Of a stretch of DNA of 64,000 bases, positions 7,366 through 36,844 are shown piece by piece; position 1 is the first letter of the stretch; the number at the start of each line of letters is the position of its first letter. The DNA lies in assembly GCF_900188455.1 (NCBI RefSeq), contig NZ_FZOL01000005.1:186001-250000 (forward strand), read 5' to 3'. Both the position numbers and the translations under genes were made by a program. The notes beneath the pieces were generated by a model, which worked only from the letters and a program-made list of their open reading frames with translations, searched no databases and had not been told where the DNA came from. This DNA is from Pseudomonas japonica (GTDB taxonomy: Bacteria > Pseudomonadota > Gammaproteobacteria > Pseudomonadales > Pseudomonadaceae).

Positions 7366-7440
7366 ATGACCCACCAGGCCGCCGAAGTCGCGAAGCGCCG
7401 CACTTTCGCAATCATTTCCCACCCCAACCATACCCTCTAA
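7366..7440 (+). pseudogene. prfC: Detached native 5' end of prfC (24 codons, then stop)
   Basis: ATG at 7366 opens a frame beginning MTHQAAEVAKRRTFAII and continuing SHP, the expected N-terminus of release factor 3. After the shared core the frame runs into element DNA and ends at TAA 7438-7440 as NHTL. The upstream bases, including a TATGAT-like box near 7322, probably contain the original prfC promoter. This promoter now produces only a 24-residue peptide, because the rest of prfC lies at 35306 and beyond. Confidence 0.85.
7411..7425 (+). other. attL core of the prfC-integrated element
   Basis: ATCATTTCCCACCCC, identical to 35306-35320 and in the same orientation. In both places it encodes IISHP of RF3. 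The surrounding bases remain similar but not identical (CGCACTTTCGCA before the left copy, CGCACGTTTGCC before the right), as expected if the element carries its own version of the prfC 5' end. Strand exchange therefore took place within or next to these 15 bases. Confidence 0.85.
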
Positions 7441-7577: not shown

Positions 7578-7629
7578 ATCAGCCCTTCGAAGACCTTTGA
7601 AAAATTATGTACGCACATCCGGAGGCCCC

Positions 7630-8835
7630 ATGGCGATCTCGGATACCTGGCTCAAAGCCAACAGCGGCAAGCCTCGCGCGGCTTTGGAAGAAAAAACCGA
7701 CCGCGAAGCTCTGAGTGTGCGCATTACGCCTAAGGGCAAAATCACCTTCCAGCTACGCTACCGCTACAATGCACGACCCTGCCGTGTTGATCTTGGCACC
7801 TATCCCCTGGTGTCACTCAAAGAGGCCCGTACAGAAGCGCAACGCCTGCGCGCCCAGCTGGAGCAGGGGCATGACCCCAGGGTCGTCAGGCTGCTGGAAA
7901 AGCAGGCGATCCTTCAGGCCGATTCAATCGAGTCCCTGTTCCGACAGTGGTATGTGTCTTACTGCCAAGGGAACAAGAAGGGCCATCACGAAATCCTGCG
8001 CTCCTTCGAAATTCATGTGTTTCCGAAGATCGGTCATTTGCCAGCCGGGAAGGTCACCATGCACGAATGGCTGGCACTGCTAGAGGAGCAGGCGAGGGTC
8101 AGGCCCGGCATCGCCGACCGCATCCTGGTCAATGCCAAGCAGATGCTCAAATGGGGTGTGAAGCGCCAGCTCATCCCCAGCCATCCACTCTCCGATATCA
8201 ACGCCAAGGAAGACCTGCAGATCAAGAAGGTTGCAGGCTCTCGCTCCCTGTCCGCCGATGAAATCAGGCTCGTGTGGAAGGCTATTGAGCAATCGCGCAT
8301 GGCGACCAAGAACAAAATATTCCTGAAACTCTGCCTGATCTATGGCTGCCGCAACGGCGAGCTACGCGTGAGCGAGAAGGGGCATTTTGATTTCAAGGCC
8401 ATGGTCTGGACGGTGCCTCCTGCCAACCACAAGCTGGGCAAGAATTCCGGTAAGCCGTTGCTTCGCCCCATCACTCCAGAGACCGAGGAGCTGATCCGGC
8501 AGGCCATTGATCTAAGCGGGGAAGGTTCTTACCTATTCACCAACAGCGGCACAGATGAGCCGATGGGGACGGGTGCGCCCCTGCAGTTGCCCTACAACAT
8601 CATGCAATGGCTGCGCAGACACGAGAAATACGAGATGGCGCACTGGTCAGTTCACGACCTGCGCAAGACAGCGCGGACGAATTTCTCGACGCTGACTGAA
8701 CCTCACATCGCCGAAATCATGCTGGGCCACAAGTTGCCGGGCAGCTGGCAGGTTTACGACCAGTACGACTATCTGGCTGAGCAAAAGGAGGCCTATAGCG
8801 CTTGGCTGAGGCGTCTTCAAGGCTTGACTGTATAA
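7630..8835 (+). CDS. int: Tyrosine-type integrase, DUF4102/P4-like (prfC-specific)
   Basis: 401-aa site-specific recombinase expected to integrate and excise the element at prfC. The N-terminal DUF4102-like arm-binding region (LSVRITPKGKITFQLRYRY ... LGTYPLVSLKEAR) is followed by a core-binding part and a catalytic domain with CRNGEL arginine, HDLRKTARTNF (H..R), GH and the C-terminal VYDQYDY tyrosine region. The frame opens at 7597, but GGAGG six bases before ATG 7630 favours that start. Lying 200 bp inside attL in prfC, it corresponds in place and type to the SXT/R391 integrase. Confidence 0.9.
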   Translation: MAISDTWLKANSGKPRAALEEKTDREALSVRITPKGKITFQLRYRYNARPCRVDLGTYPLVSLKEARTEAQRLRAQLEQGHDPRVVRLLEKQAILQADSIESLFRQWYVSYCQGNKKGHHEILRSFEIHVFPKIGHLPAGKVTMHEWLALLEEQARVRPGIADRILVNAKQMLKWGVKRQLIPSHPLSDINAKEDLQIKKVAGSRSLSADEIRLVWKAIEQSRMATKNKIFLKLCLIYGCRNGELRVSEKGHFDFKAMVWTVPPANHKLGKNSGKPLLRPITPETEELIRQAIDLSGEGSYLFTNSGTDEPMGTGAPLQLPYNIMQWLRRHEKYEMAHWSVHDLRKTARTNFSTLTEPHIAEIMLGHKLPGSWQVYDQYDYLAEQKEAYSAWLRRLQGLTV

Positions 8836-9905: not shown

Positions 9906-11105
9906 ATGCCCGACATCAGGAAAAGAACCGGTAAAAATGGAACGACCTATCAGGTTCGGTACGCAGATATCACGTCCAGTACCGGCTATTCCTATGCCAG
10001 CTTCAGAACACTCAAAGAAGCCAAAACATACTCCCACGACAGCCAAAGCTGGGTAACAAAATCAGCCGCCAAAGATATGGACGTGCCTCAGGCCGTTGAT
10101 ATGTGGCTGGAGGTTTGCCAAACCGAAGGCCGTGAGGGCCGGGACCCGGTATCCCCCGCCACGTATAAGTATTACAGCTACATCGCCGACATCATGAAGT
10201 CCTATCCCTGGAAAAAGGACATACGAGAACTCCGCAAGCCCGATATCGTCGGTTTCAGGTCATGGCTGATTGCCGAGCATGGTCGCTATCTTGCCGCCAA
10301 GAACCTCACATACTTTCATGCGGTTCTCGCTGAAATGTCCACGCGCGGCCTGATCGACAGCAACCCTGTCTCAGGTATCAGCGTACGCAAGGATACCCGC
10401 TACAAAGAGCCCATCGTCATTCCTACGCCGAAAGAGATCGAAGCTCTGCTGAAGGCGGCTGACGATCTTGCAAACTCCAAAAACCTCCAGATTGCCAAAG
10501 CCTGGGAGCGGTATCGCCCCATGCTGTACCTAGCCGTTGACTCCGGCATGCGGCCACAGGAATACGTGGTGATTGCCGGACGCAATATCCAGAAGCATGG
10601 CGTGCAGGTGGAGAGGGCTCTCGACCGGGGCGGAGAGCTGTCTGTTCCCAAGACACCCGCATCACGCCGCTTTATCGAGATCAGTCCGGAAACGCTCAAG
10701 ATGGTCACTCATTACCGAGACCACAAGGCCGTGAGTAATCCCTACGATCTTGTCTTCCCGACCTCTACGGGCGAGTGGCAGTCCCTAGACAATTGGAGGA
10801 AGCGTGGTTTCTTTGCTGCCCTGGAGAAGGCGGGGCTCGTTATCACCAAGATGGTCGATGGGGAGGAAGTCGTCACCCCCAAATACACGCCGTATTCGCT
10901 GCGCCACTTCTTTGCATCCATGTTGATAGCCGAGAAGACAGATATCGCGAAAATTACGACACTAATGGGGCACACCGATATCAGCACCACGTACGATGTT
11001 TATGCACATCTGATCGAGCGCAGCGCAGACGAGAAGGGGCATCCCAGTGGGATGATTGCCCGCATGAAAAATAAACCTGCGAAGAGCAAAAGAAGCACGC
11101 GCTGA
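9906..11105 (+). CDS. Second tyrosine-type integrase (tRNA-Gly type by context)
   Basis: 399-aa phage-type integrase, different from the first. The N-terminus (MPDIRKRTGKNGTTYQVRY) is an arm-binding AP2-like/DUF3596-type start, residues about 70-160 form a SAM-like core-binding domain, and the catalytic part shows SGMRPQE (Arg), YSLRHFFASML (H..R), LMGHTDISTT and TYDVYAH (nucleophile tyrosine). A 3' fragment of tRNA-Gly lies 85 bases after its stop, suggesting it once served an element inserted in that tRNA gene. All catalytic residues appear intact. Confidence 0.88.
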   Translation: MPDIRKRTGKNGTTYQVRYADITSSTGYSYASFRTLKEAKTYSHDSQSWVTKSAAKDMDVPQAVDMWLEVCQTEGREGRDPVSPATYKYYSYIADIMKSYPWKKDIRELRKPDIVGFRSWLIAEHGRYLAAKNLTYFHAVLAEMSTRGLIDSNPVSGISVRKDTRYKEPIVIPTPKEIEALLKAADDLANSKNLQIAKAWERYRPMLYLAVDSGMRPQEYVVIAGRNIQKHGVQVERALDRGGELSVPKTPASRRFIEISPETLKMVTHYRDHKAVSNPYDLVFPTSTGEWQSLDNWRKRGFFAALEKAGLVITKMVDGEEVVTPKYTPYSLRHFFASMLIAEKTDIAKITTLMGHTDISTTYDVYAHLIERSADEKGHPSGMIARMKNKPAKSKRSTR

Positions 11106-11656: not shown

Positions 11657-13810
11657 TTGGCTCAGCTAGAGAACATCGAGGCGATTGAAAGACGGCTTTG
11701 GAAGGCAGCAGACACCCTCCGTGGCAACTCTGAACTGGCCAGTAACGAATACTTTCTGCCCGTGATGGGCCTGATTTTCCTGCGCCACGCCTACAGCCGC
11801 TTCCTGGCTGTGAAGGATGAGATTGTCGCAACCCTGCCCAGCCGGGGTGGCAAGACCCGCGACCTTACCAAAGAAGATTTCTCACAGAAAGGTGCGATCT
11901 ACCTGAACCCCAAGGCTGAATTTGACGCCTTGGTAGCGCTCACCGATGCCGATGATCGTGCTGAGGCCATCATCAAGGCGATGGAATCCATCGAGAAAGA
12001 TTACGCCAATCTAGCGGGCCAGTTGCCCAAGAACGAATATCGCAGCATCCCCAACGACGTCTTGGGTCAGCTGCTGCGAACTCTGAACCCAGATGAGCTG
12101 AAGAAAGCCACTGGGGACATTTTTGGTCGGATTTACGAGTACTTCCTGACGGAGTTTGCCGACCAAGGGGCTCACGACGGTGGTGAGTTCTTCACCCCCG
12201 TTTCCTTGGTGCAGCTCATCACCAACGTGCTGGAGCCAGATCACGGCATTGTCTTCGACCCAGCCTGCGGCTCTGGCGGTATGTTCGTGCAGAGCGCTCA
12301 CTTCCTGGAAGTCCACAAGGATGACCCGAACAAACTCACCTTCTACGGACACGAGAAGAACCGTGTAACGACCCGCCTATGCAAAATGAACCTCGCGGTT
12401 CATGGTCTTGAAGGCAATGTGGTGGGCGGCGAGCAGGCCATCACCTACTACAACGATCCCCATGAAAAGCTCTGGGGTAACGTCGATTACGTTATGGCGA
12501 ATCCGCCCTTTAACGTGGACGAGGTGGATGCTGAGAAAATCAAGAACGATCCACGCCTGCCGTTTGGCATCCCAGGCATCAACAAAACCAAGAAGGTTCC
12601 CAACGCAAACTACCTCTGGATTCAGTACTTCTACAGCTACCTGAATAACAAAGGCCGCGCTGGCTTTGTCATGTCCTCACAAGCTTCGGGTGCGGGCCGG
12701 GAAGATGCCAAGGTCCGTGAACAACTAGTGAAATCTGGCCATGTCGATGCCATGATCGACATTCGTGGCAACTTCTTCTACACACGCCCTGTGCCTTGTC
12801 AGCTTTGGTTCCTTAACAAGGACAAACCCAAAGCGCATCAGGACAAAGTGTTGATGGTTGATGCGCGTAATGTCTATCGCAAGGTCACGCGAAAGATTTA
12901 TGACTTTAGCCCTGAGCAGCTTAAAAATCTGACCTCTATAGTTTGGCTATACCGGGGGCAAACCGATCGCTTTATTGAGCTCTTGCACAGCTATATTGAT
13001 AGCGCTCTGCTGGAGGCGTGTGCCTGTGAAAAATCAGAGAGCCTGCTGGCAGAGCCGGTGCCTGATTTTATTGCTGCACTTAAAAGTCTTTACGCGGCTA
13101 TGCGTCCGTTTTTGGAGCAGTTAGAGAAGGGCGCTGATCCTGAAGAGTTGCACGTCGCGCTCCATGCTGAGCTGCTGAAAGCTATTGAGCAAATTGATGC
13201 TGATTGGTCTGACTTCCGAGTCTTGAAAAATGACCTCCACGAGTGGTGGGGACGTCATCCGTATGACACAGCAGAAGATTTGACCGATTTCACTGAGAGC
13301 GACATCTGTCTCAAAGATCTTGCGGAGAATGGTCGTGATTTGGTCAAGCTGATTGATCATGCTTACAAGTTAAGCACGCGGCTAATTGAGCTTTGTGAGA
13401 ACGAGCACGCGGCAAGAAACAGTGAACATTGGGATTACGCTAGTATACACGGCACTCGTCGTACTAGCCTCAAGAAGGCTACAGACGAGTCGAGAAAAAC
13501 TGCAGTGGACCAACTTAAGCTGGTTCGCTATTTCTACAAGCAAGCACATTGGCTGTTGTCACGCTTTCCAAATGGCGAACTATGTGATGTCAAGGGCTTG
13601 GTTAAACTAGTTTCGATAGAAGAAATTGAGTCGGCAAACTGGGCTTTGAATCCTGCTGTTTATGTTGAAGTGGCTCCGGAGGAAGTTGATGAGGAATTCG
13701 ATTTCGAGGAGACATTAAGGGATATTCATACAGAGTTAAAAGGCCTCAATGAAGAAGCCGCAATTTTAGCTGCCCAAATCTCTAGAAATATTGAGGAGTT
13801 GGGTATATGA
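11657..13810 (+). CDS. hsdM: Type I restriction-modification DNA methyltransferase subunit HsdM (long form)
   Basis: N6-adenine methyltransferase of a type I system, 717 aa from a TTG start preceded by AAAGGA. The helical N-terminal HsdM domain is followed by the SAM motif DPACGSGGMFV (near residue 200) and catalytic NPPF (near 282). Most HsdM proteins are about 500 aa. Here a helical stretch of roughly 200 residues (about 430-640) lies between the methylase core and the normal C-terminal end (SANWALNPAVYVEV ... ISRNIEELGI). The stop overlaps hsdS by 4 bases. The 3' part is poorer in GC than the 5' part. Confidence 0.9.
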   Translation: MAQLENIEAIERRLWKAADTLRGNSELASNEYFLPVMGLIFLRHAYSRFLAVKDEIVATLPSRGGKTRDLTKEDFSQKGAIYLNPKAEFDALVALTDADDRAEAIIKAMESIEKDYANLAGQLPKNEYRSIPNDVLGQLLRTLNPDELKKATGDIFGRIYEYFLTEFADQGAHDGGEFFTPVSLVQLITNVLEPDHGIVFDPACGSGGMFVQSAHFLEVHKDDPNKLTFYGHEKNRVTTRLCKMNLAVHGLEGNVVGGEQAITYYNDPHEKLWGNVDYVMANPPFNVDEVDAEKIKNDPRLPFGIPGINKTKKVPNANYLWIQYFYSYLNNKGRAGFVMSSQASGAGREDAKVREQLVKSGHVDAMIDIRGNFFYTRPVPCQLWFLNKDKPKAHQDKVLMVDARNVYRKVTRKIYDFSPEQLKNLTSIVWLYRGQTDRFIELLHSYIDSALLEACACEKSESLLAEPVPDFIAALKSLYAAMRPFLEQLEKGADPEELHVALHAELLKAIEQIDADWSDFRVLKNDLHEWWGRHPYDTAEDLTDFTESDICLKDLAENGRDLVKLIDHAYKLSTRLIELCENEHAARNSEHWDYASIHGTRRTSLKKATDESRKTAVDQLKLVRYFYKQAHWLLSRFPNGELCDVKGLVKLVSIEEIESANWALNPAVYVEVAPEEVDEEFDFEETLRDIHTELKGLNEEAAILAAQISRNIEELGI

Positions 13811-14970
13811 GTCTGCAGCCCGGCCTTATAGAGATTGGCGAGTTGTTAAAGGCTGAAGCAATCTTGGCGATTCAAGATGGAAATCACGGGGAGAAACATC
13901 CCAAGGCATCCGATTATGTGGATGAGGGGATTTCTTTTGTGATGGCTAATGACTTGAATAGAGGGATCTTAAATCCGCTTGAGACGGCAAAAATACCAGA
14001 AGGGCTTGCTGAAAAGCTGAGGATTGGGTTCTCAAAATCAGGTGATGTTTTATTGACGCATAAGGGTACTATTGGAAATACAGCAATAGTGCCAGAAGTC
14101 TCGCCCTATGTCATGCTTACCCCGCAGGTAACCTATTATCGAGTAAATCCAGATTTGCTAGATAATCAATACTTAATGTATTGCTTTCGAGAGAGCGGAT
14201 TTCGAAAAGTCATGGCCTCTTTAGCTCAGCAATCAACAAGGCCATACATCGGGATTACTGCTCAACGAAAACTCAAAATATTCTACAGGGGTATCGATGA
14301 GCAAAAAGAGCTGGTTAGATTCATAAAAACTTACGATGACCTTATAGCTAACAATTATCGCCGTTTAAAGTTACTCGATGATGCTGCCAGGGTTTTGTAT
14401 AAAGAATGGTTTGTGCATCTTAGGTTTCCTGGGCATGAGCATGTAAAGATAACCGATGGTGCTCCTGCTGGTTGGAGCATAAAAAAAATTGGCGAGATTT
14501 TGACTCTGAACTACGGGAAGGCTTTAAAGTCTGACGATAGAGTTGAGGGAGAATTTCCCGTATATGGCTCAAGTGGCGTAGTTGGAACTCACAGTAAGTC
14601 TCTTGTCGCTGGTCCAGGGATCATAGTCGGTCGGAAAGGCAATGTAGGGTCTATACATTGGAGTACAAAGGATTACTGGCCTATTGATACTGTCTACTTT
14701 ATCTCTAAAGAGGAGTGTGATTTGTATTTGTATTATGCGCTGCAGTATGTCCAGTTCATAAATACAGACGTTGCTGTTCCTGGCTTAAATAGGGATGTGG
14801 CTTACGGTAGGACTGTTTTAATCCCATCTTCATCCATCCTGGAAAGCTTTTTGAATGAAGTTCAACCAATCCGCGCCCAGATTGAAAAGTTAGAAGAGCT
14901 AAATGCTAAGCTTGTAGCCGCACGTGATTTGCTTTTACCTCGACTGATGAATGGAGACATCGCTGTATGA
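13807..14970 (+). CDS. hsdS: Type I restriction-modification specificity subunit HsdS
   Basis: 387-aa DNA recognition subunit with two target-recognition halves. The first is joined to a conserved helical spacer ending in LLDDAARVLYKEWFVHLRFPG; the second starts at GWSIKKIGEILTLNYGKAL and ends in the conserved IEKLEELNAKLVAARDLLLPRLMNG coiled coil. It is clearly richer in A+T than hsdR, common for exchangeable specificity genes. Overlaps both neighbours by 4 bases (ATGA). Confidence 0.9.
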   Translation: MSLQPGLIEIGELLKAEAILAIQDGNHGEKHPKASDYVDEGISFVMANDLNRGILNPLETAKIPEGLAEKLRIGFSKSGDVLLTHKGTIGNTAIVPEVSPYVMLTPQVTYYRVNPDLLDNQYLMYCFRESGFRKVMASLAQQSTRPYIGITAQRKLKIFYRGIDEQKELVRFIKTYDDLIANNYRRLKLLDDAARVLYKEWFVHLRFPGHEHVKITDGAPAGWSIKKIGEILTLNYGKALKSDDRVEGEFPVYGSSGVVGTHSKSLVAGPGIIVGRKGNVGSIHWSTKDYWPIDTVYFISKEECDLYLYYALQYVQFINTDVAVPGLNRDVAYGRTVLIPSSSILESFLNEVQPIRAQIEKLEELNAKLVAARDLLLPRLMNGDIAV

Positions 14971-17900
14971 ATGCAATGACCGAGGATCATCTGGCGCAGG
15001 AGACGACTGCCAATTACCTGCTGCATGACCTGCAGTGGGATGAGTCGATCTATGCCATGAAGGAGATTTTGGGCAAGGAAGGCACCCTCGGTCGCACCAA
15101 TGAGTCCGAGGTGGTGTTAAACCGCTACCTCGGTAAGAAGCTCATCGACCTCAATCCTGGTCTCCCCATGGAGGCCTATGAAGACGCCTTGCGGATTGTG
15201 AATGAGTACAGCAGCAGCTCCGTGCTGCTGGCGACCAATCGCGAGAAGGATAATCTTCACAAGAACGGCGTTGAGGTGAGCTTCCGCAATGAAAAGGGCG
15301 AGCGCGTCAAAAAGCGCCTTCGCCTATTCGACTTTGATGACTCATCCAAGAACCACTTCCTTGTCGTGAGGGAGCTTTGGGTCAAAGGCGACCTGTATCG
15401 CCGACGTGCCGATATTGTTTGCTTCGTGAACGGTATCCCGCTCGTCTTCATGGAGCTCAAGAATGTCCACAAGGACATCAAGGCGGCCTACGAGAAGAAC
15501 TTTGCGGACTACAAAGACACCATCCCGCATCTCTTTCACCACAATGCCTTCATCGTCCTGGGCAATGGCGTGGACGCCAAGATCGGCTCGGTCTCCAGCA
15601 AGTTTGAGCATTTCAACGACTGGAAGCGCCTGCACGAAGACAGTTCCGGCGTCGTGGACATGGAGACGCTGCTGAAAGGCACATGCTCAAAATCCAACCT
15701 GATGGACATCTTCGAGAACTACATCCTCTTCGATGAAAGCTCTGGGAAGCTCGTCAAGATTGTCGCCCGTAACCACCAGTTCCTGGGCGTCAACCGGGCC
15801 ATTGAGGCTGTGAAAGATCGCAAAGCCCGTGCAGGAAAGCTTGGGGTCTTTTGGCATACCCAAGGCTCCGGCAAATCTTATTCAATCGTTTTCTTCGCCC
15901 GGAAGGTCCACCGCAAGCTGGGCGGAAACTACACCTTTGTCGTCCTGACCGACCGCGAGGATCTGGACACTCAGATCTACAAAACCTTCGGCGGGTGCGG
16001 GGTTGTGGATAACGACCGCGATCCTTGCCGCGCCACCAGTGGTGAGCATTTGCAGGAGTTGCTGGGACAGCACAAAGCTTTCGTGTTTTCGCTGATCCAG
16101 AAATTCAACAAGAAAGTCGATCCCGAAAAACCTTACTCGGAGCGGGACGACATCATCGTCATCACTGACGAAGCGCACCGTACCCAGTACGGCACGCTCT
16201 CCCTGAATATGCGCAACGCTATGCCCGGTGCAAGCTTCATCGGCTTCACCGGCACGCCGCTGTTCAAGGATGACGAAATCACCAAAAAGGTTTTCGGTGA
16301 ATACATCTCCACCTATGACTTCCAGCGGGCGGTGGAGGACAACGCCACCGTACCGCTCTATTACGATGCGCGCGGCGAGCAGCTGCGTTTCGTGGATGAG
16401 GATGGCGACGAGCATAGCGTGGCCGACCCGAAGGGGTTGAACGAGAAGATCGCCGCCAAGCTTGAAGAGCTGGAGATCGATGATATCGACGTTCAGCAGC
16501 GCCTGGAACGCGAGCTAAAGCGTGACTACCACATCATTACTAGTACCAGCCGTCTCGAACAGGTTGCACAGGATTTTGTCCGGCATTACGCCAATGGCTG
16601 GGAAACCGGCAAGGCCATGCTGGTTTGCATCGACAAGATCACCTGCGTGCGGATGCACAAGCTGATAGATGACTATTGGCAAGAGCACATCGCCCGCCTG
16701 GAAAAAGACTTGCCGAGCGCTCTGGACGAGCAGGATGACATCTGGCGTCGTCGCCAGATTGACTGGATGCGCGAAACGCAAATCGCCGTCGTGGTGAGCG
16801 AAGAACAGGGCGAGGTGGATAAGTTCCGTAAATGGGAACTGGATATCACCCCTCACCGTCGTTTGATGAAAGAGGGCTTTCTGCTTGGCGACGGAAAACG
16901 ACTCGACCTTGAGAGCGCTTTCAAGAAGTCAGAGCACCCGTTCCGCGTGGCTATCGTTTGTGCCATGTGGTTGACTGGTTTTGACGTACCAACCCTCTCC
17001 ACGCTTTATCTCGACAAGCCTTTGCAGGCCCATACGCTTATGCAGGCTATTGCGCGCGCAAACCGCGTTGCGGAAGGCAAGAACAACGGCCTCATCGTCG
17101 ATTACTGCGGCATCCTCAAAAACCTGCGGCAAGCCCTGTCTACTTTTGCCGGTCGCGGGGATGAGGGGCATGGAGATGATGAGGGGGAACTCGACCCTAC
17201 ATTGCCTAAGGAAGACCTTCTCGCAGAGCTCATTGAGGCCATCGGGTTCGTGCGGGACTTCCTGCAGGTTCAGGGTTTCCGCCTGGAAGACATCAACGAG
17301 AAGACTGGCTTTGCACGAAACGCAGCCATCATCGAAGCCAAGGAAGCTGTCAACGAAAACGACCAGACTCGCAAGCGCTTCGAGATTATGGCGCGCGAGG
17401 TCTTCAAGAAATTCAAAGCCTGCATCAACGTACCCGGCGTGAATGGGCAGCGCGACGCCAGGGATGCCATCAATATCATCTACAAGAGCTTGCAGGCCGA
17501 CCGCGAGGCCGCAGACATCAGCGACATCATTCGCCAGCTCCACGGGATCGTTGATGAAACGATACATACCCGTGCTTCTGCAGGCGAGGGTGCTGGGGTT
17601 TATGACATCAGCAAGATTGATTTCGAGCGGCTGCGTCTGGAGTTTGCCAAATCTCCGGCCAAGCACACCGCCGTACAGGGGTTAAAAGACGTCATCGAAA
17701 AACGTCTGAACATCCTGCTGATGAAGAATCCGCTGCGCACCGACTTCCAGGCCCACTATGACAAGCTGGTCGATGAATACAATCTCGAAAAAGATCGGCT
17801 CACCATCGAAAAGACTTTTGAGGCGCTGCTGAAGCTCGTCGATGATCTGAGCGCGGAAGAGCGCCGCGCCATGGAGGAAGGCCTGGATGAGGAAACGCTG

Positions 17901-18203
17901 GCCTTGTTCGATCTGCTCTCAAAGCCACAGCTCTCCAAGGGCGATACGGCCAAAATCAAGAAGGTTGCTTCCGAACTGCTTGAAATCCTGAAATCCGAGC
18001 GGCTCAGGGTCGAAAACTGGCGCGAGAAGGAAAGCACGCGCGATGCCGTGAAGCAGAAGATCTATGACTTCCTGTGGGATGACAGTACCGGGCTTCCGGT
18101 CAATGACTACAATGAGGACGAGATTAAGGTCCTTGCTGAAAATGTCTTCCGCCACGTGTACCGGGCTTATCCGACAGTGCCATCGCCGATTTACGGGCAC
18201 TGA
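14967..18203 (+). CDS. hsdR: Type I restriction endonuclease/translocase subunit HsdR
   Basis: 1078-aa motor and nuclease. The N-terminal PD-(D/E)XK nuclease shows RADIVCFVNGIPLVFMELKN (ELK near residues 162-164). Helicase motifs follow: Walker A TQGSGKS (near 300), DEAH (near 401) and TGTP. The C-terminal third is the helical domain that docks on the methylase. No broken frame or missing motif is visible, so the system appears complete. Confidence 0.93.
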   Translation: MNAMTEDHLAQETTANYLLHDLQWDESIYAMKEILGKEGTLGRTNESEVVLNRYLGKKLIDLNPGLPMEAYEDALRIVNEYSSSSVLLATNREKDNLHKNGVEVSFRNEKGERVKKRLRLFDFDDSSKNHFLVVRELWVKGDLYRRRADIVCFVNGIPLVFMELKNVHKDIKAAYEKNFADYKDTIPHLFHHNAFIVLGNGVDAKIGSVSSKFEHFNDWKRLHEDSSGVVDMETLLKGTCSKSNLMDIFENYILFDESSGKLVKIVARNHQFLGVNRAIEAVKDRKARAGKLGVFWHTQGSGKSYSIVFFARKVHRKLGGNYTFVVLTDREDLDTQIYKTFGGCGVVDNDRDPCRATSGEHLQELLGQHKAFVFSLIQKFNKKVDPEKPYSERDDIIVITDEAHRTQYGTLSLNMRNAMPGASFIGFTGTPLFKDDEITKKVFGEYISTYDFQRAVEDNATVPLYYDARGEQLRFVDEDGDEHSVADPKGLNEKIAAKLEELEIDDIDVQQRLERELKRDYHIITSTSRLEQVAQDFVRHYANGWETGKAMLVCIDKITCVRMHKLIDDYWQEHIARLEKDLPSALDEQDDIWRRRQIDWMRETQIAVVVSEEQGEVDKFRKWELDITPHRRLMKEGFLLGDGKRLDLESAFKKSEHPFRVAIVCAMWLTGFDVPTLSTLYLDKPLQAHTLMQAIARANRVAEGKNNGLIVDYCGILKNLRQALSTFAGRGDEGHGDDEGELDPTLPKEDLLAELIEAIGFVRDFLQVQGFRLEDINEKTGFARNAAIIEAKEAVNENDQTRKRFEIMAREVFKKFKACINVPGVNGQRDARDAINIIYKSLQADREAADISDIIRQLHGIVDETIHTRASAGEGAGVYDISKIDFERLRLEFAKSPAKHTAVQGLKDVIEKRLNILLMKNPLRTDFQAHYDKLVDEYNLEKDRLTIEKTFEALLKLVDDLSAEERRAMEEGLDEETLALFDLLSKPQLSKGDTAKIKKVASELLEILKSERLRVENWREKESTRDAVKQKIYDFLWDDSTGLPVNDYNEDEIKVLAENVFRHVYRAYPTVPSPIYGH

Positions 18204-21386: not shown

Positions 21387-21994
21387 TTCAAATCTCCTTT
21401 TCCGTCTTTTCGGCCACCCATCGCGGCCTCATGGCGCTCGTCCACGCACAGGTGACGGCCACGGCTGCACCCGTAATCACGGGCCGCAACGGCAGAGAAG
21501 GAGTCATTCATGACTTGCAGCACCGACGTGACGACACCTGCGCGAAAGCCCATAGATCAGGACGCATGCGAGGTGTGATGAAAGAAGACGAGGGAGACAG
21601 ATGTGGAGCGCTGATGACCGTTTTGAAAATGGTAACGAGATCTGAGGGCGAACCTGCTGCGCTTCGTGTTGCAGGCCGGGCTCTACGCGCTGTCGCGCGC
21701 CGGGCCAATGAACAACTCTTGTCCCGGCCATACGGTGACGATCCCTTTCGCGAAAAAAAGGCCCTCAAGGGGCATCCGCCCCTGGCGCAACGCAAGGGTA
21801 AAGCTTCGCCCCGGTTAAAGGGTGTCCCCAACCTTCCGCACCCATCAACAGCCATGGGTTTGTGCAGGCCGGGTGATTCCCCTCCCTTTACCGAGCCCGT
21901 TGCGTTTTGCCTCCCCGGTCTCGCCGACGGGCAGGGGTGCATGTGCGGACCACACAGCACATGCACCCATAGCCCTGATAGGAGAGCCCAAGCC
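21387..21994. other. ardA leader region without a confident gene
   Basis: Codon frames are open across much of this stretch, including the frame of ardA back to 21431, but none looks clearly like a protein. A short frame at 21510-21578 (22 codons, MTCSTDVTTPARKP...) has a strong AAGGAG site. A stretch near 21644-21810, read in another frame, encodes RANLLRFVLQAGLYALSRAG and ends KLRPG; it looks protein-like but has no good start. These may be remnants or leader peptides of ardA. Confidence 0.35.
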
Positions 21995-22507
21995 ATGACC
22001 AGCACGCCCCGCATCTATGTTGCCGATCTTGCTGCCTACAACAGCGGTTACCTCCACGGCGTCTGGATTGACGCGAGCGCAGAGGTCGAGGATATCCAGG
22101 AACAAATCAATGCCATGCTGGCAGCTTCCCCTGTGCCGGATGCCGAGGAATACGCCATTCACGATTACGAAGGCTTTGACGGCTACCAGCTTGGAGAGTA
22201 CGAGGGCATCACTACAGCCCACGAAATCGCATGTTTCATCGAGGAGTGCCCGGAGTTCGGGGGGGCGCTGCTCGGGCATTTTTCCAGTGTCGAGGAAGCA
22301 CGCAAGGCAGCCGAGGAAGATTATTGCGGCAGCTTTGAATGCCTGGCCGACTACGCGCAGCAGCTCACCGAGGAAACCACGCAGATCCCGGCATCACTGG
22401 CCTATTACATCAACTACGAGGCCATGGCCCGCGACATGGAGCTGGGCGGCGACGTGTTCACCCTGGAAACCAGCTACCGCGAAGTCCATGTGTTCTGGAA
22501 TCGTTGA
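21995..22507 (+). CDS. ardA: Antirestriction protein ArdA
   Basis: 170-aa acidic DNA mimic that blocks type I restriction enzymes. The start MTSTPRIYVADLAAYNSGYLHGVWID and the IHDYEGF ... EYEGI motif are diagnostic of ArdA. AGGAG lies 11 bases ahead of ATG 21995. The frame is open upstream to 21431, but the family N-terminus begins exactly here. It would protect the element from the restriction systems of a new host; whether it also restrains the element's own HsdMSR is unknown. Confidence 0.93.
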   Translation: MTSTPRIYVADLAAYNSGYLHGVWIDASAEVEDIQEQINAMLAASPVPDAEEYAIHDYEGFDGYQLGEYEGITTAHEIACFIEECPEFGGALLGHFSSVEEARKAAEEDYCGSFECLADYAQQLTEETTQIPASLAYYINYEAMARDMELGGDVFTLETSYREVHVFWNR

Positions 22508-28072: not shown

Positions 28073-29602
28073 TTAAAGGTATGGAGCTAGCGCGCCATCT
28101 TTCTGGTGCCAGATCACCCGCTGCAACATCATCGGGTGACGGCCCGCCCACAGAATCAACTGGCGTTGCAGAGGATCATGGCGTGCGAAATGACGCCTGA
28201 TCTCATCAGGGGTCAGCAGGTCATGAAGCTCAATCGCCTCCGAGCGCCCGGATAATCCCTTACTCTGCTGGTCCTGCGCCACTTCACCCATGCGCGCGAC
28301 TTCCACCTGGGTTTTTCCGAGCAATTTGGAGATGTATTCGGTCGTCGCCAGATCGTTGTTGCCGAAGAACTGCATGATGCCTGCGTTACCGGCGAAGGTT
28401 TCCCAGCGTTCGCCATAGAGTGCCTTGCCCTGGCTCCAATCCTGCAGGATCACCCAGAGTTTCACGCCGAAGGATGCAATCAGGCCTGAAGCCGTTTCCA
28501 GTTGCTTCATGTAGCCCAGCACCGGGAACTCATCGAGGCACGCCAGCACAGGGGCGGGCGGTACAGCCTTTTCACTCTCCATGGCATCGAGCAGCTGGTT
28601 CACGAATATCCGCATCCAGCGCCTTGCAATCTCGATGCGGGTAGCCGGGAAGCATAGATAAATGCTGACACCGCCCGGTTTGTTCTTCAGCTCCGCGAGA
28701 TCGAAATCATGGTCTTTTAAGACCTGCCGAAAGGCTGAGTAGTCGAGAAACTTGGTATGCCGGTTTACAGTGGAGTGGACGCTGCTGAGCTCATTGCCGC
28801 GCTTGCCGTAGAAATCGAGCGCTGCCGCCATCAGCGCGCTGCCGATGTCCTCCGTCTCCGGGACGTCCATCAGTTCATATGCATTGCCCATCATCTCGTC
28901 ATGGAGCAAAGGCATGCTGGGCGCTGATTCCTCCTCCTCATCAGCCTGCTCTTTCCACAGGGCCCGCTTAATCAGCTCCCGCACCTTGATAAGGTGACGG
29001 TCGCCATCATGCTGCGCTGCCGTCGCGACATGAACAATCACACCCTCTATGAAGTTCTTTGCGGACTCGTCCCAGTGAGGATCTTTCTGATCCGCTGACT
29101 GCACAACAATCGACTCGGCAATCAGCGCGGCATCTTCCAGAAAGGTCAGGCTGCCAAGGGTGAGAACACTCATCGGATTAAAAGATGCCCGGAACGAAGA
29201 GGTCTCTTTGCTGGAGACCCCGAAGGGGTCGACGACATAGATTTTTTGCCCCAGGGCTGCCCGCTTGCTGGCGGTGATACTGGCAAGCTCGCCCTTGGGA
29301 TCGGTCGCGATAATGCTGCCGGGATAAAAGAACAGGTTGCTGATAAGGCCGACCGATTTGCCGGAGCGTGATCCCGCCACAGTCAGGATGTGGCGGTCGT
29401 CCTCAATCCCGATCAGTTGCTCGCCCAGGGCTCCGATCAGTACTTTCTTTCCCGGTTTGCGCGGGTCATACGCCAGTATGCTGCTCGCTGCTATTTCTTC
29501 GAGCTTCATCCAGCGCGCCTGCGGTACTTTCTGCTCACGCAAGGGGCGGGTGGAGTCGCCGCGTGGAACGTCTCGCATGAATTCCTTGAAGAAATCGCTC
29601 AT
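28073..29602 (-). CDS. VirD4/TraG-type conjugative coupling ATPase lacking membrane helices
   Basis: 509 aa from ATG 29602 (GAGG 9 bases ahead; preferable to the longer frame). Walker A AGSRSGKS at residues 76-83 with downstream IATDPKGELASIT, and Walker B LACLDEFP near residue 357, identify a type IV coupling protein that feeds the relaxase-DNA complex to a secretion channel. Usual VirD4/TraG proteins begin with two membrane helices; this one begins with a soluble MSDFFKEFMRDVPRG stretch. Membrane anchoring may come from the two small membrane proteins at 24444-25681. No secretion-channel genes are in the element. Confidence 0.88.
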   Translation of the reverse strand: MSDFFKEFMRDVPRGDSTRPLREQKVPQARWMKLEEIAASSILAYDPRKPGKKVLIGALGEQLIGIEDDRHILTVAGSRSGKSVGLISNLFFYPGSIIATDPKGELASITASKRAALGQKIYVVDPFGVSSKETSSFRASFNPMSVLTLGSLTFLEDAALIAESIVVQSADQKDPHWDESAKNFIEGVIVHVATAAQHDGDRHLIKVRELIKRALWKEQADEEEESAPSMPLLHDEMMGNAYELMDVPETEDIGSALMAAALDFYGKRGNELSSVHSTVNRHTKFLDYSAFRQVLKDHDFDLAELKNKPGGVSIYLCFPATRIEIARRWMRIFVNQLLDAMESEKAVPPAPVLACLDEFPVLGYMKQLETASGLIASFGVKLWVILQDWSQGKALYGERWETFAGNAGIMQFFGNNDLATTEYISKLLGKTQVEVARMGEVAQDQQSKGLSGRSEAIELHDLLTPDEIRRHFARHDPLQRQLILWAGRHPMMLQRVIWHQKDGALAPYL

Positions 29603-29935
29603 GGCTTGGGCCTCGCCACAGATGTCCATAGAGCATGGCATACAGGCGTATGCAGACACTTTTTGCGGCGCTGATTTTCCGCTCTACGGTTGGGGTGTGT
29701 TCTCGACGCTCCTGGTCCTGAAGCTGCGTTTATTCCTGCTCATAAGCCTTAATCCCTTAGTCAGCCTTCGCCGATGCCTTGCCAGCGTATCAATGGGCGG
29801 CCCGCACCAGCCTGCACTTAATCGGGCGTTGCCCTGGTGCAGGCCCGTGTTGCCCATGACACGTCGGCGTCTGCTGACTACTGGGGGCTTGTCGCTGGAA
29901 TAAACCAGCCTCAAAGCAAAATCAGGAGCTAAACC
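29603..29935. promoter_or_regulatory. Divergent intergenic region upstream of the coupling-protein gene
   Basis: No convincing gene. It must start transcription both ways. An inverted repeat CCTGCAC / GTGCAGG (about 29812-29844) brackets a GC-rich loop and could be an operator or attenuator ahead of the 68-aa gene. Confidence 0.4.
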
Positions 29936-30142
29936 ATGAGCACCAAATCCACCAATGAATCCCGTAAACCCGGCTTTGTGGCAAAGACCCGGAAAGGCAC
30001 AGGCGAGCACGCCGTCTATGAACGCATCGGCGTCGCCTGGAAAAATGCCGATGGCTCGTTTTACATCAAGCTCGCGGGCACGCAGGTCGTCTCCGACTTC
30101 ATGCTCTATGAAATCGAAAGCACAGAAGCACCTGCTGATTAG
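29936..30142 (+). CDS. Small conserved-looking hypothetical protein, 68 aa
   Basis: AGGAG lies 8 bases before ATG. The sequence (SRKPGFVAKTRKGTGEHAVYERIGVAW ... DGSFYIKLAGTQVVSDFMLYEIE) looks like a compact beta-rich fold with a flexible N-terminal tail. Similar small proteins are common in plasmid and ICE mobilization regions, but I cannot name the family. It ends in a strong terminator. Confidence 0.65.
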   Translation: MSTKSTNESRKPGFVAKTRKGTGEHAVYERIGVAWKNADGSFYIKLAGTQVVSDFMLYEIESTEAPAD

Positions 30143-30166
30143 CAGAAGCGAATTCATCACCACACA

Positions 30167-30194
30167 GACGGGCTCACAAGGCCCGTCTTTTTTT
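30167..30194 (+). terminator. Rho-independent terminator after the 68-aa gene
   Basis: Stem GACGGGC / GCCCGTC with loop TCACAAG, followed by seven T residues. It isolates the downstream hairpin array from upstream transcription. Confidence 0.88.
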
Positions 30195-30436
30195 GCAATC
30201 CGTATCAGTCCGCCACAGTCTGTTTCGATCCCGGCACTACGCATCCGTACAGGTGCAGCGCTGTACGTTATGCGCCGGGACTTATTGGTACCCATACGCA
30301 CGTTGCCGTGCTATGGAAGACACATCTGAACAGCATCAGGAAAGGTGAGACCGCATCAGCGGCTCGCTCTTTTAGAAAATATTCATACTCCCAGCCATAC
30401 ACTGGTCTCATGGGCCAGCAGCGAACGAAGTGAGCA

Positions 30437-30469
30437 CAAGGTGTGCGTGGTAGTACCACGCCCACCTTG
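30437..30469. repeat. 33-nt near-perfect inverted repeat at head of hairpin array (oriT candidate)
   Basis: CAAGGTG-T-GCGTGGT / AGT / ACCACGC-C-CACCTTG: a 15-step stem with a single mismatched pair (T444/C462) and a 3-base loop. It lies about 350 bases upstream of the relaxosome gene. Long inverted repeats like this lie beside the nick site in many origins of transfer. I do not see a matching known nick consensus, so the oriT call is inferred from place and shape. Confidence 0.55.
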
Positions 30470-30771
30470 CGTGGGGACTTCCAGTCCCCCGCGAACCCCC
30501 CTGGGAATCCCTAGGCTCCAAAGTTCTTGTGGAACTTTGTCACCAAGGGATTAGGGCGCAACGTGTCGTCGTTGCATCGCGATCAGAGGAGACTTCGGCT
30601 CTCCTCTGAACTCCATCGAGCAAAGGGCACTTCGTAGCCCCTTGCGACCCTCGATTAAGGACTTTCGCGTCCTTAAAACCACGACCGGGAATTCGGCCCG
30701 GTGCCGACCAAAAGGAGATGTCAGCTCTCCCTTTGGAATCCCATCGACCAGTAGCGCGAAGCTGACCGCGC
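30469..30771. repeat. Array of about ten adjacent hairpins upstream of mobilization genes
   Basis: Consecutive stem-loops with few bases between them: 30469-30492 (GGGGACT/AGTCCCC), 30500-30515, 30519-30539 (CAAAGTTC/GAACTTTG), 30558-30575 (GCAACG/CGTTGC), 30583-30609 (TCAGAGGAG/CTCCTCTGA), 30615-30655 (compound: ATCGA outer, GCAAAGGGC/GCCCCTTGC inner), 30655-30676 (TTAAGGAC/GTCCTTAA), 30684-30702 (ACCGGG/CCCGGT), 30708-30736 (11 steps, one mismatch) and 30754-30771 (GCGCG/CGCGC). Left arms are mostly purine-rich, right arms pyrimidine-rich, and several loops contain TTCG, as if one hairpin type had multiplied while stems changed on both sides. No protein-like frame crosses it. Confidence 0.75.
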
Positions 30772-30820
30772 GAGGAAATCGAGAGGAAAGAGGAACTGCC
30801 TGCGAGCATATGTTGATGGC

Positions 30821-31165
30821 ATGACCAGACGAACGAAAAAACGCCCTGCGCCGATCTCCTACCGCCCGCCTGAGCGGCTGCGTGAGGAGTTTCATTTGCG
30901 CGTGACGCACTCTGGTCAGTCGATCAACGCGTTCATCACCGAAGCCGTGTTCGGGCAGGCCATACCACGCGCCAGACCCATCTCATCCCTGGAGCGCAAG
31001 CTTGCGGCCATGCTGCTCTCGCAGGCTGCCCGGATTAACGACCGGCTGGCGCAGGCATGCGGTGAGCCCGACGCGGGCCATCTGGAGCAGTTGCTTCAGG
31101 AGTGTCGTGACGAACTCACTGAAATCCGCAGCTATCTCATGCTCGTGCTGGGGAGGGACCCATGA
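30821..31165 (+). CDS. Relaxosome accessory protein, MobC/TraJ-like
   Basis: 114 aa. Basic N-terminus (MTRRTKKRPAPISYRPPERLREEFHLRV) followed by SGQSINAFITEAVFG, which fits the ribbon-helix-helix fold of relaxosome DNA-binding proteins, then a helical tail (LLSQAARINDRLAQ ... LLQECRDELTEIRSYLM). It overlaps the relaxase start by 4 bases, the usual MobC-relaxase arrangement. It should bind the upstream oriT region. The ribosome-binding site ahead of this ATG is weak. Confidence 0.75.
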   Translation: MTRRTKKRPAPISYRPPERLREEFHLRVTHSGQSINAFITEAVFGQAIPRARPISSLERKLAAMLLSQAARINDRLAQACGEPDAGHLEQLLQECRDELTEIRSYLMLVLGRDP

Positions 31166-32757
31166 TCCCTTTTGCCTCGCAGCGCGGCAGTGGACAGGAC
31201 CTGGCAACGCATCTCCTGAATGCTTACGACAATGAGCTGGCTGAGGTCGCCGATCTGCGTGGCGCAATTGCAGGCGACCTGCACGGTGCCTTCAAGGAAT
31301 GGCAGGTGCAGGCCGAGACACTGACCCGCTGTGAGAATTATCTCTACAGCCTCTCGATCAACCCCGATCCCGCGCAGGGGCCGCTCACCCGCGACCAGTA
31401 CATGGATTACATCTGTCGCGCCGAAGACACACTGGGTCTGGGTGACCAGCCGCGCGCTATCGTCTTCCACATCAAGGATGGCCGTGAGCATTGCCACGTC
31501 GTCTGGTCGCGGATCGACGCCGATCATGAGAAGGCCGTTCACCTGGCCTTCGACCGCGACAAGCTGATGCGGGTGACCAGGGTCTTTGCTCGCGATCACG
31601 GCCTGACGCTCCCGTCCGGTTATGAGAAATCCCGGAACGCGGGCCAGCTCTCGCTCTATGAGCGGGCACAACTGCAGCGCACAGGCCTCTCCCTGGACGA
31701 CCACAGGCGGCAGGTTACCGAGGCCTGGCATCAGAGTGATAATGCTCGCACGTTCGTTCATGCCTTAAGCGAACGGGGCTACATGCTGGCCACGGGTAAT
31801 CGGCCCTATGTGCTGGTTGATCTCTACGGCAACGTGAATGCGCTGCCCCGGCTGATCGACGACAAGTCCATCCGCACCAAGGACATCCGGACTTTCCTGG
31901 AGAAGGAATTCCCTCCTGAAGCGTTACCTGCCGTGGAGGAGGCGCAGAAACTCGTGGCCGACCACCGCAAGCAGGTCGAGCGGTCGGTACGGGAGGATGA
32001 GTACGCCGACAAGCTTGCCGAACTCAAACAGGCCCAAGAGGAGCGGCGGCATGTGCTGGAGCAGCAGCGCGAAGCTCTCAGATACCGCCAACATGCCCTG
32101 CGCCTGGCGCAGCAGGCCAAGCACCGGGCCGAGCGGAACAAACTGCGTGCTGGTCATGTTGCCCTGATGAAACAGGTGCGCCAGGATCGCTATGAGCACC
32201 GGCCCACCGGCCTGGCTGAATTCCTGGGGCGGGTCAGTGGCGTAAATTTCCTGCGGCACAAGTTCCACCACTATCAGGATACGAAGCGCCTGCGGGCTTA
32301 TCTCGATCAGCACACTCAACTGAAATCCCGCCAGTCCCAGGAGGCCAGAGCGCTGGCGTTACGGCTCAAGCTTCAAGGGGCGAACATCGAGCGCCAGTAC
32401 AAGTCACTCGAAAAGGTGGATAAACGGGAGTTCGCCGCGTTCATGCGCGACCTGCAATGCGCACAGCGCATCCGGGCACGCGGGAAAGACGGTGCCATGC
32501 CGTCGCTGGTTCAGATTCATCCAGGGCGCAGGCGCTCAACCGGCAGGGGCACAGTGCCCGATGTCATGGCCGCTTTCGAGCAGGCGCGTCACGCGCCGCG
32601 CAGCCCGTTCCCGGATGTGATGGCAGCGTTTGAGCGGGCCACCGCCGTGTTCCGCAAGGAGAGACAGGAACAGCGTGAAGGCGAGGGGCCAGAGAAATCC
32701 CGACCGCTGATGCCATCGCGTCACCGCAAGGGCCATGAGCCTGACCGGGAACGGTAA
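31162..32757 (+). CDS. HUH relaxase (MOBP-like), mobilization endonuclease
   Basis: 531 aa. Starts a DNA strand transfer by nicking oriT. Residues 7-22 (QRGSGQDLATHLLNAY) resemble MOBP motif I with Tyr22 the likely nucleophile; motif III FHIKDGREHCHVVWSRID supplies metal ligands His103, His110 and His112. Residues about 265-345 form a charged coiled coil. Near the C-terminus the phrase PDVMAAFE(Q/R)A occurs twice about 18 residues apart (near residues 465-495), possibly a translocation or binding signal. No helicase or primase domain is present. Confidence 0.86.
   Translation: MIPFASQRGSGQDLATHLLNAYDNELAEVADLRGAIAGDLHGAFKEWQVQAETLTRCENYLYSLSINPDPAQGPLTRDQYMDYICRAEDTLGLGDQPRAIVFHIKDGREHCHVVWSRIDADHEKAVHLAFDRDKLMRVTRVFARDHGLTLPSGYEKSRNAGQLSLYERAQLQRTGLSLDDHRRQVTEAWHQSDNARTFVHALSERGYMLATGNRPYVLVDLYGNVNALPRLIDDKSIRTKDIRTFLEKEFPPEALPAVEEAQKLVADHRKQVERSVREDEYADKLAELKQAQEERRHVLEQQREALRYRQHALRLAQQAKHRAERNKLRAGHVALMKQVRQDRYEHRPTGLAEFLGRVSGVNFLRHKFHHYQDTKRLRAYLDQHTQLKSRQSQEARALALRLKLQGANIERQYKSLEKVDKREFAAFMRDLQCAQRIRARGKDGAMPSLVQIHPGRRRSTGRGTVPDVMAAFEQARHAPRSPFPDVMAAFERATAVFRKERQEQREGEGPEKSRPLMPSRHRKGHEPDRER

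Positions 32758-35254: not shown

Positions 35255-36844
<1,590 letters not shown>

Follow-up and report, generated by a model that had tools for sequence, protein, structure and literature searches.

The stretch of Pseudomonas japonica DNA analyzed here (64,000 nucleotides; the window) contains, at 30437-30771, a series of hairpins whose stems have changed in pairs, that keeps a constant side relative to a conserved core and that is also present at sites without an adjacent relaxase gene. The core includes a presumed origin of transfer (oriT), and we consider it likely that the array is a single-stranded DNA (ssDNA) element of the transferred strand (T-strand), tied to oriT. The array probably acts on the single strand that is passed between cells, perhaps as the origin of its second strand. 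Among four roles offered by a sequence-only reading of this DNA, that of an oriT region that folds when single-stranded is favored by the oriT-like inverted repeat, the paired substitutions, the wide conservation and the retention of the array without an adjacent relaxase gene, and that of a structured RNA leader is disfavored by five loci without an adjacent relaxase in which a convergent ORF is the first long one past the array.

Anatomy of the array and its host element

The sequence-only reading had described about ten consecutive hairpins of similar design, and both points held: a symmetric stem finder returned ten hairpins at 30437-30771, nine solid and the tenth weak, with left arms that are 68% purine. 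H1 (30437..30469, minus strand) is the inverted repeat of the presumed oriT, with the predicted nick site (nic) at its left foot, and could be aligned across relatives; the remaining hairpins are assigned no strand. H2 (30473..30489) is the second hairpin of the conserved core, within the model R1 described below. H3 (30506..30552; inverted repeat I1) is longer and interrupted, with an inner stem at 30519-30539. H4 (30558..30575) has six pairs and the loop TGTCGT, which in the related locus L007 is TTTCGC, and H5 (30583..30609) has ten pairs and the loop CTTCGGC. H6 (30620..30645) has a stem of nine positions including one A.C mismatch, H7 (30655..30676) eight pairs and the loop TTTCGC, H8 (30684..30702) six pairs and the loop AATTCGG, and H9 (30708..30736) a stem of eleven positions, again including one A.C mismatch. 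The weak H10 (30754..30771) has five pairs and is poorly kept in relatives: in six Pseudomonas rows, 70% of its cells are paired compared with 91-100% in the other nine helices.

Folding of this region exceeds that of shuffled sequence on both strands. For 30411-30800, the plus strand gave z -6.8 as RNA and z -7.6 as ssDNA and the minus strand z -8.1 as RNA, each below all 100 shuffles, and the minus strand of 30435-30790 gave z -9.0 as ssDNA; the 300 nt downstream of H1-H2 hold eight hairpins compared with a mean of 1.2 in 20 shuffles. The proposal that the hairpins arose by internal duplication found partial support, in 18-nt stretches that are 83% identical between H5 and H9 and 78% identical between H5 and H6. 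Similarly, the statement that no frame crosses the array stands for the whole array, which is spanned by no listed ORF of at least 60 amino acids, and fails for its parts, which are overlapped by ORFs of up to 119 amino acids. We found no description of such a hairpin array in PMC titles and abstracts, a search with subscription literature mostly outside its scope, and its novelty is therefore provisional.

The array lies in an integrative element of ∼28 kb that encodes a relaxase and a coupling protein and is inserted in prfC. Copies of a 15-bp repeat, the presumed attachment sites, lie at 7411..7425 and 35306..35320, the right copy inside the 5' part of prfC (identified by NCBIfam). Upstream of the left copy the sequence reads as a second prfC start, and the insertion supplies prfC with a new 5' end. 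A tyrosine integrase gene (7597..8835, plus strand; PF00589) adjoins the left end of the element, which also carries a second tyrosine recombinase with weak similarity to Xer and integron integrases (9906-11105), a type I restriction-modification operon (11657-18203), an ArdA-domain gene (21431-22507) and an Abi_C gene. Closer to the array are the gene of the VirD4/TraG-type coupling protein (28073..29659, minus strand; PF02534, E 1.1e-65), a small relaxosome-type gene (30821..31165, plus strand) and the relaxase gene (31162..32757, plus strand; PF03432, E 4.2e-15). The small gene is NikA/MobC-like by position and matches PF21983 below the cut-off (E 0.059), which was passed by four of eight scanned genes at the same or a similar position (in L029, L089, L032 and L033).

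The presumed oriT and paired changes in the stems

H1 resembles the inverted repeat of an oriT, and we infer that nic separates the minus-strand nucleotides complementary to 30437 and 30436. All 50 loci have, on the minus strand, CTTG and then a C or T at the left foot of H1; they were found by the model or by searches favoring this motif. The longer forms of the motif are CATCTTG(C/T) in 20 and CACCTTG(C/T) in 21 of these loci. According to a passage of PMC3772185, the nick consensus of MOBP systems is (C/T)ATCCTG(C/T) with an adjacent inverted repeat. The foot of H1 differs from this consensus by one or two letters, in loci chosen by a model that contains the motif. In the arm of H1 beside the foot, one internal position is T in all 20 aligned sequences and the base opposite is C, G or T, or a pairing A, as would be expected if a protein reads that arm. 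An inverted repeat beside the predicted nick and a relaxase of the PF03432/MOBP kind, two of the features by which a MOBP-type oriT is recognized, are both present. Because of the foot motif and the one-sided conservation of the T, the minus strand would be the one transferred, with the array just 5' of nic and entering last. The sequence CAAGnnnTGCG of H1 also resembles TAAGTGCG of RSF1010, and a plus-strand nick inside H1 of the RSF1010 kind was considered and set aside because the relaxase belongs to PF03432.

As the sequence-only reading had proposed, stems have changed in pairs. In six Pseudomonas arrays, 93.9% of cells pair, and seven pairs are changed on both sides compared with 3.2 in shuffles, none of 500 shuffles reaching seven. 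Covariation was 0.070 compared with 0.035 in shuffles (again reached by none of 500), and when the partners were slid the number of pairs changed on both sides fell to 0-1. The number of pair types alone showed no excess over shuffles in these six arrays (140 of 500). The inner stem of H3 and the stem of H7 each contain three pairs changed on both sides. Across 16 overlapping locus comparisons, 981 pairs were unchanged, 36 had compensatory changes, six were changed on both sides and broken, and 104 fell in gaps; in the same tally, 82 stem pairs were changed on one side and unpaired (46 other, 20 A.C and 16 G.T). These counts exclude the MAFFT alignment A4 of mixed groups, in which the arrays were misaligned. 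Overall, most relatives keep the hairpins and their double changes mostly pair, as the sequence-only reading required of them; this does not extend to L025 and L026, which keep the first two hairpins, nor to the one-sided changes.

To ask which strand folds, A.C and G.T mismatches read on the plus strand were compared, and the evidence that they give for the acting strand is weak and mixed. A.C outnumbered G.T by 37 to 11 with all loci pooled, redundancy included, and by 33 to 16 when each hairpin was counted once; clusters gave 12 of each, and pairwise events 20 to 16. By loop class, the ratio was 24 to 6 for loops of 6-8 nt, a class picked after seeing the data; the two remaining classes gave 7 to 6 and 3 to 3. 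Of 38 loci, 24 fold better as the minus strand (p 0.057), and the left flanks lean the opposite way (13 of 38, p 0.051). The loop and linker counts and the wobble counts in unique hairpins and clusters cover 40 of the 50 loci, the other ten being core only, with few hairpins, or short (L025, L026, L029, L056, L063, L076, L078, L079, L082 and L087); L013 was additionally left out of the loop-class wobble count, and L013 and L066 out of the strand-folding comparison.

The strong RNA folding of both strands and the covariation would also suit a structured RNA, be it an independent non-coding RNA or the leader of the mobC-relaxase message, which we nevertheless consider unlikely. A plus-strand RNA would favor G.U, yet A.C on the plus strand is as common or commoner; the window and seven related loci gave no match above the gathering threshold in Rfam 15; and, as described below, there are arrays whose neighbor is convergent and next to which no relaxase gene lies. 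The case against an RNA from the minus strand is less strong.

Distribution, side and neighbors of the array

A covariance model of H1-H2, R1 (minus strand of 30435-30500, 15 training sequences), matched 26 of 32 sources, the window and the training sequences included; no match was obtained in L006, L016, L018, L028, L031 or L021, the last of which starts too near the relaxase to tell. R1 further matched 12 of 14 source genomes, five of 398 Pseudomonadota genomes (the genome of the window among them) and 18 of 385 alphaproteobacterial genomes, in 17 of 277 genera. A relaxase profile matched 28 of the same 385 genomes, and 16 of the 18 core-bearing genomes had both core and relaxase family (Fisher p 5e-19, nominal; exceptions G807 and G820). 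Relatives of the relaxase were found at 24 loci in GTDB contigs and in 14 plasmid records; MOB-suite typed five records as MOBP, L034 as MOBQ and L031 as non-mobilizable. In eleven further relaxase regions (L104-L114), the ∼2.5 kb upstream contained no match to the core.

Arrays of at least four hairpins are also present without an adjacent relaxase gene, in L081, L083, L086, L095, L097 and L098. For eight of the core sites with no relaxase gene next to them, the same contig carries a family relaxase at a distance of 4.7-18.9 kb (G993 C42, G830 C4, G809 C8, G804 C1, G708 C1, G779 C61, G779 C36 and G901 C80). Of 13 loci without an adjacent relaxase, five (L080, L081, L083, L085 and L098) have a convergent ORF as the closest long one past the array, and in others the closest is co-directional; an mRNA leader would always lie upstream of, and co-directional with, the mobC-relaxase operon, and in these five loci the array does not. 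The array accordingly accompanies the oriT core and not the mobC-relaxase operon.

These convergent neighbors also bear on the proposal that folded T-strand hairpins recruit RNA polymerase, which would transcribe the T-strand and yield sense RNA of the plus-side genes. Single-strand promoters are known from the transferred strands of F and ColIb-P9 (cited in the portion of PMC7314908 drawn on here), and the direction of such transcription would suit mobC and relaxase in the window. We regard this proposal as quite unlikely, given the convergent ORFs of L080, L081, L083, L085 and L098, the position of the array at the trailing and not the leading end if nic is placed correctly, and a scan of 29800-31300 for the double-stranded consensus, in which no sigma-70-like promoter was found.

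Among relatives of this one relaxase family, 0 to ∼12 hairpins follow the core, on the same side. Of 49 loci, 33 have at least four hairpins on the H2 side, and of 47 loci, four have as many on the other side; the loci counted are partly near-identical (L087 was too short, and L029 and L066 were without left flank). Loci with the core only or few further hairpins are L025, L026, L029, L056, L063, L076, L078 and L079. Near-identical loci (L007/L008, L009/L013, L003 = L013 and L004 = L007) were partly retained in the side, loop and foot-motif counts. The loop seen most often on the plus strand is TTTCGC (21 of 300 hairpins in 40 loci), which is also what results when the most frequent base is taken at each position of 87 unique six-base loops; GCCGA, ACCACGA and CTTCGA are among the frequent short linkers. 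Among 98 unique left arms (loops of 6-8 nt, 40 loci), 78 are more than half purine, nine less than half and 11 even. This design of purine-rich left and pyrimidine-rich right arms is identical on both strands, whereas loops and linkers differ between them, and the split may stop left arms from pairing among themselves.

Conserved loops and linkers combined with variable stems suggest repeated protein contacts, and a docking platform, on which multiple copies of the NikA/MobC-like protein, the relaxase or the coupling protein would bind (the hairpins being ssDNA or extrusions of supercoiled DNA) and which would raise transfer efficiency, fits nearly as well as the single-strand origin discussed below. 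The array is always beside the core, and accessory and coupling-protein genes are near in many loci. We nevertheless find this platform somewhat doubtful in view of a hairpin number that varies from 0 to ∼12 within one relaxase family and of arrays that persist where no mobC homologue was detected nearby, though MobC may act from a distance.

Several individual loci deserve mention. In P. veronii (L006), the first ∼400 bases at a contig end contain hairpins from H3 on, with other sequence replacing H1-H2, which reflects either an assembly edge or a coreless array. In the alphaproteobacterial loci L011:5343, L010:5496, L022:5327 and L034:5294, the hairpin after H3 has, on the minus strand, a loop like TTCGATA and resembles a tRNA T-arm. 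The core occurs at two or three separate places in the genomes G779 (L066, L078 and L079), G787, G901, G694 and G308, with an array at some of these sites and alone at others. In G968:C1:1056745-1057905 (L090), a relaxase match with one internal stop codon lies beside an intact-looking array. The pattern TTTCGCN{3,9}GGACCACGACC matched 18 IMG/VR contigs, which we took to be chance matches: in the 440 bases around each, no repetition of the loop-linker design was seen, although there were weak stems (up to 11, in L047). The relaxase protein search returned no viral relative, and a plasmid DNA search with the Sinorhizobium meliloti array returned only its own plasmid and one near-identical plasmid.

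PADLOC was applied to ten long ORFs from eight loci that lack an adjacent relaxase, all on the array side, and five of the eight loci gave strong matches: Gabija GajA and GajB (L095:6463-10697), pAgo with a TIR partner (L083:2688-5707), Upx (L086:1827-5621), type IIG/DrmMI (L097:7398-11504) and a type III methyltransferase (L099:6512-8308). Matches in L096 (HerA, 1e-14) and L082 (3e-5) were weaker, and the ORFs scanned in L080 had none. Defense genes just beyond some arrays, together with the second tyrosine recombinase of the element, would suit hairpins that are recombination sites, folding when single-stranded like integron attC sites, and capture cargo. This is highly improbable, as no genes lie between hairpins in the loci inspected, the hairpins are short and no common crossover sequence was noticed by eye.

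A possible single-strand origin and known systems

We propose that the relaxase would recognize the H1 inverted repeat and nick the minus strand at its left foot. The minus strand would then be transferred, and the other hairpins would occupy its 3' end, which trails and immediately precedes the nick. Once displaced or in the recipient, this strand could fold into a series of individual hairpins, a ladder whose loops (GCGAAA-like on the transferred strand) and linkers resemble one another. Complementary-strand synthesis would most likely start at this ladder, acting as a single-strand origin (sso), and with priming there one continuous synthesis could copy everything 5' of it. This full statement, an ssDNA-acting cis extension of oriT with a minus-strand nick at H1 and the ladder as sso, is advanced tentatively and we judge it a little short of an even chance; the strand of nic, ssDNA as the acting form and priming are its inferred parts.

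The orientation of the array relative to the predicted nick is constant and secondary structure is present near it, as looked for in an sso. Because sso elements work in one orientation (passages of PMC5703833 describe them as serving the leading strand only and as not reversible), the constant side of the array fits this reading. Elements with the core only, and the weak strand test, count against the sso mechanism. We also searched for a primase that might substitute for the array: five relaxases (L025, L026, L029, L093 and L094) and five neighboring proteins contained no Pfam primase family, a result that is neutral to negative for the priming model, and L094, scanned as array-poor, has four hairpins.

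In more general terms, we regard it as evenly balanced whether the arrays represent a class of oriT-linked ssDNA elements with many unlike hairpins, conserved loops and linkers and compensatory evolution, which would fold on the transferred strand and govern how it is converted, transferred or used early in the recipient. Mobilizable islands of a large alpha- and gammaproteobacterial family, some with the array beside anti-phage genes, would be the carriers of this class. How integrated elements make the transferred strand double-stranded is little known, and in 2015 the authors of the ICEBs1 work, in the sections of PMC4595007 used here, wrote that virtually nothing was known of strand conversion for ICEBs1 or any ICE; a conserved ladder beside a presumed nick makes the question testable. 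The R1 core model, moreover, can serve as a probe for mobilizable islands, some with defense genes by the array and a relaxase many kilobases away.

Compared with known systems, the presumed oriT shares with MOBP oriTs of the IncP/IncI/VirD2 type a PF03432 relaxase, an inverted repeat with a nick-like foot motif and, in relatives, a NikA/MobC-type accessory gene, and differs in that CTTG replaces CCTG. For the oriTs of RP4 and tfs4, the passages of PMC3772185 used here describe no hairpin series, whereas up to ∼12 hairpins follow the core here. IMEs that carry an oriT without a relaxase (iOriT) are a known concept, as outlined in part of PMC11389934, and several of our loci likewise have core and array without an adjacent relaxase gene; however, the eight sites with a family relaxase 4.7-18.9 kb off on the same contig may not be relaxase-free. 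The single-strand promoters of F and ColIb-P9, as far as described in the source cited above, are likewise hairpin DNA on the transferred strand but serve the leading region, whereas the array has many hairpins and would lie at the trailing end by the predicted nic. In ICEBs1, sso1 lies just downstream of the relaxase gene and works in one orientation, and its authors argue, in the same sections of PMC4595007, that structure counts beside or instead of sequence. Likened by structure and position, the array has in common with sso1 and with the sso of rolling-circle plasmids a structured stretch near the relaxase gene with one orientation relative to the nick; those elements contain few structures, whereas here many separate hairpins stand beside oriT.
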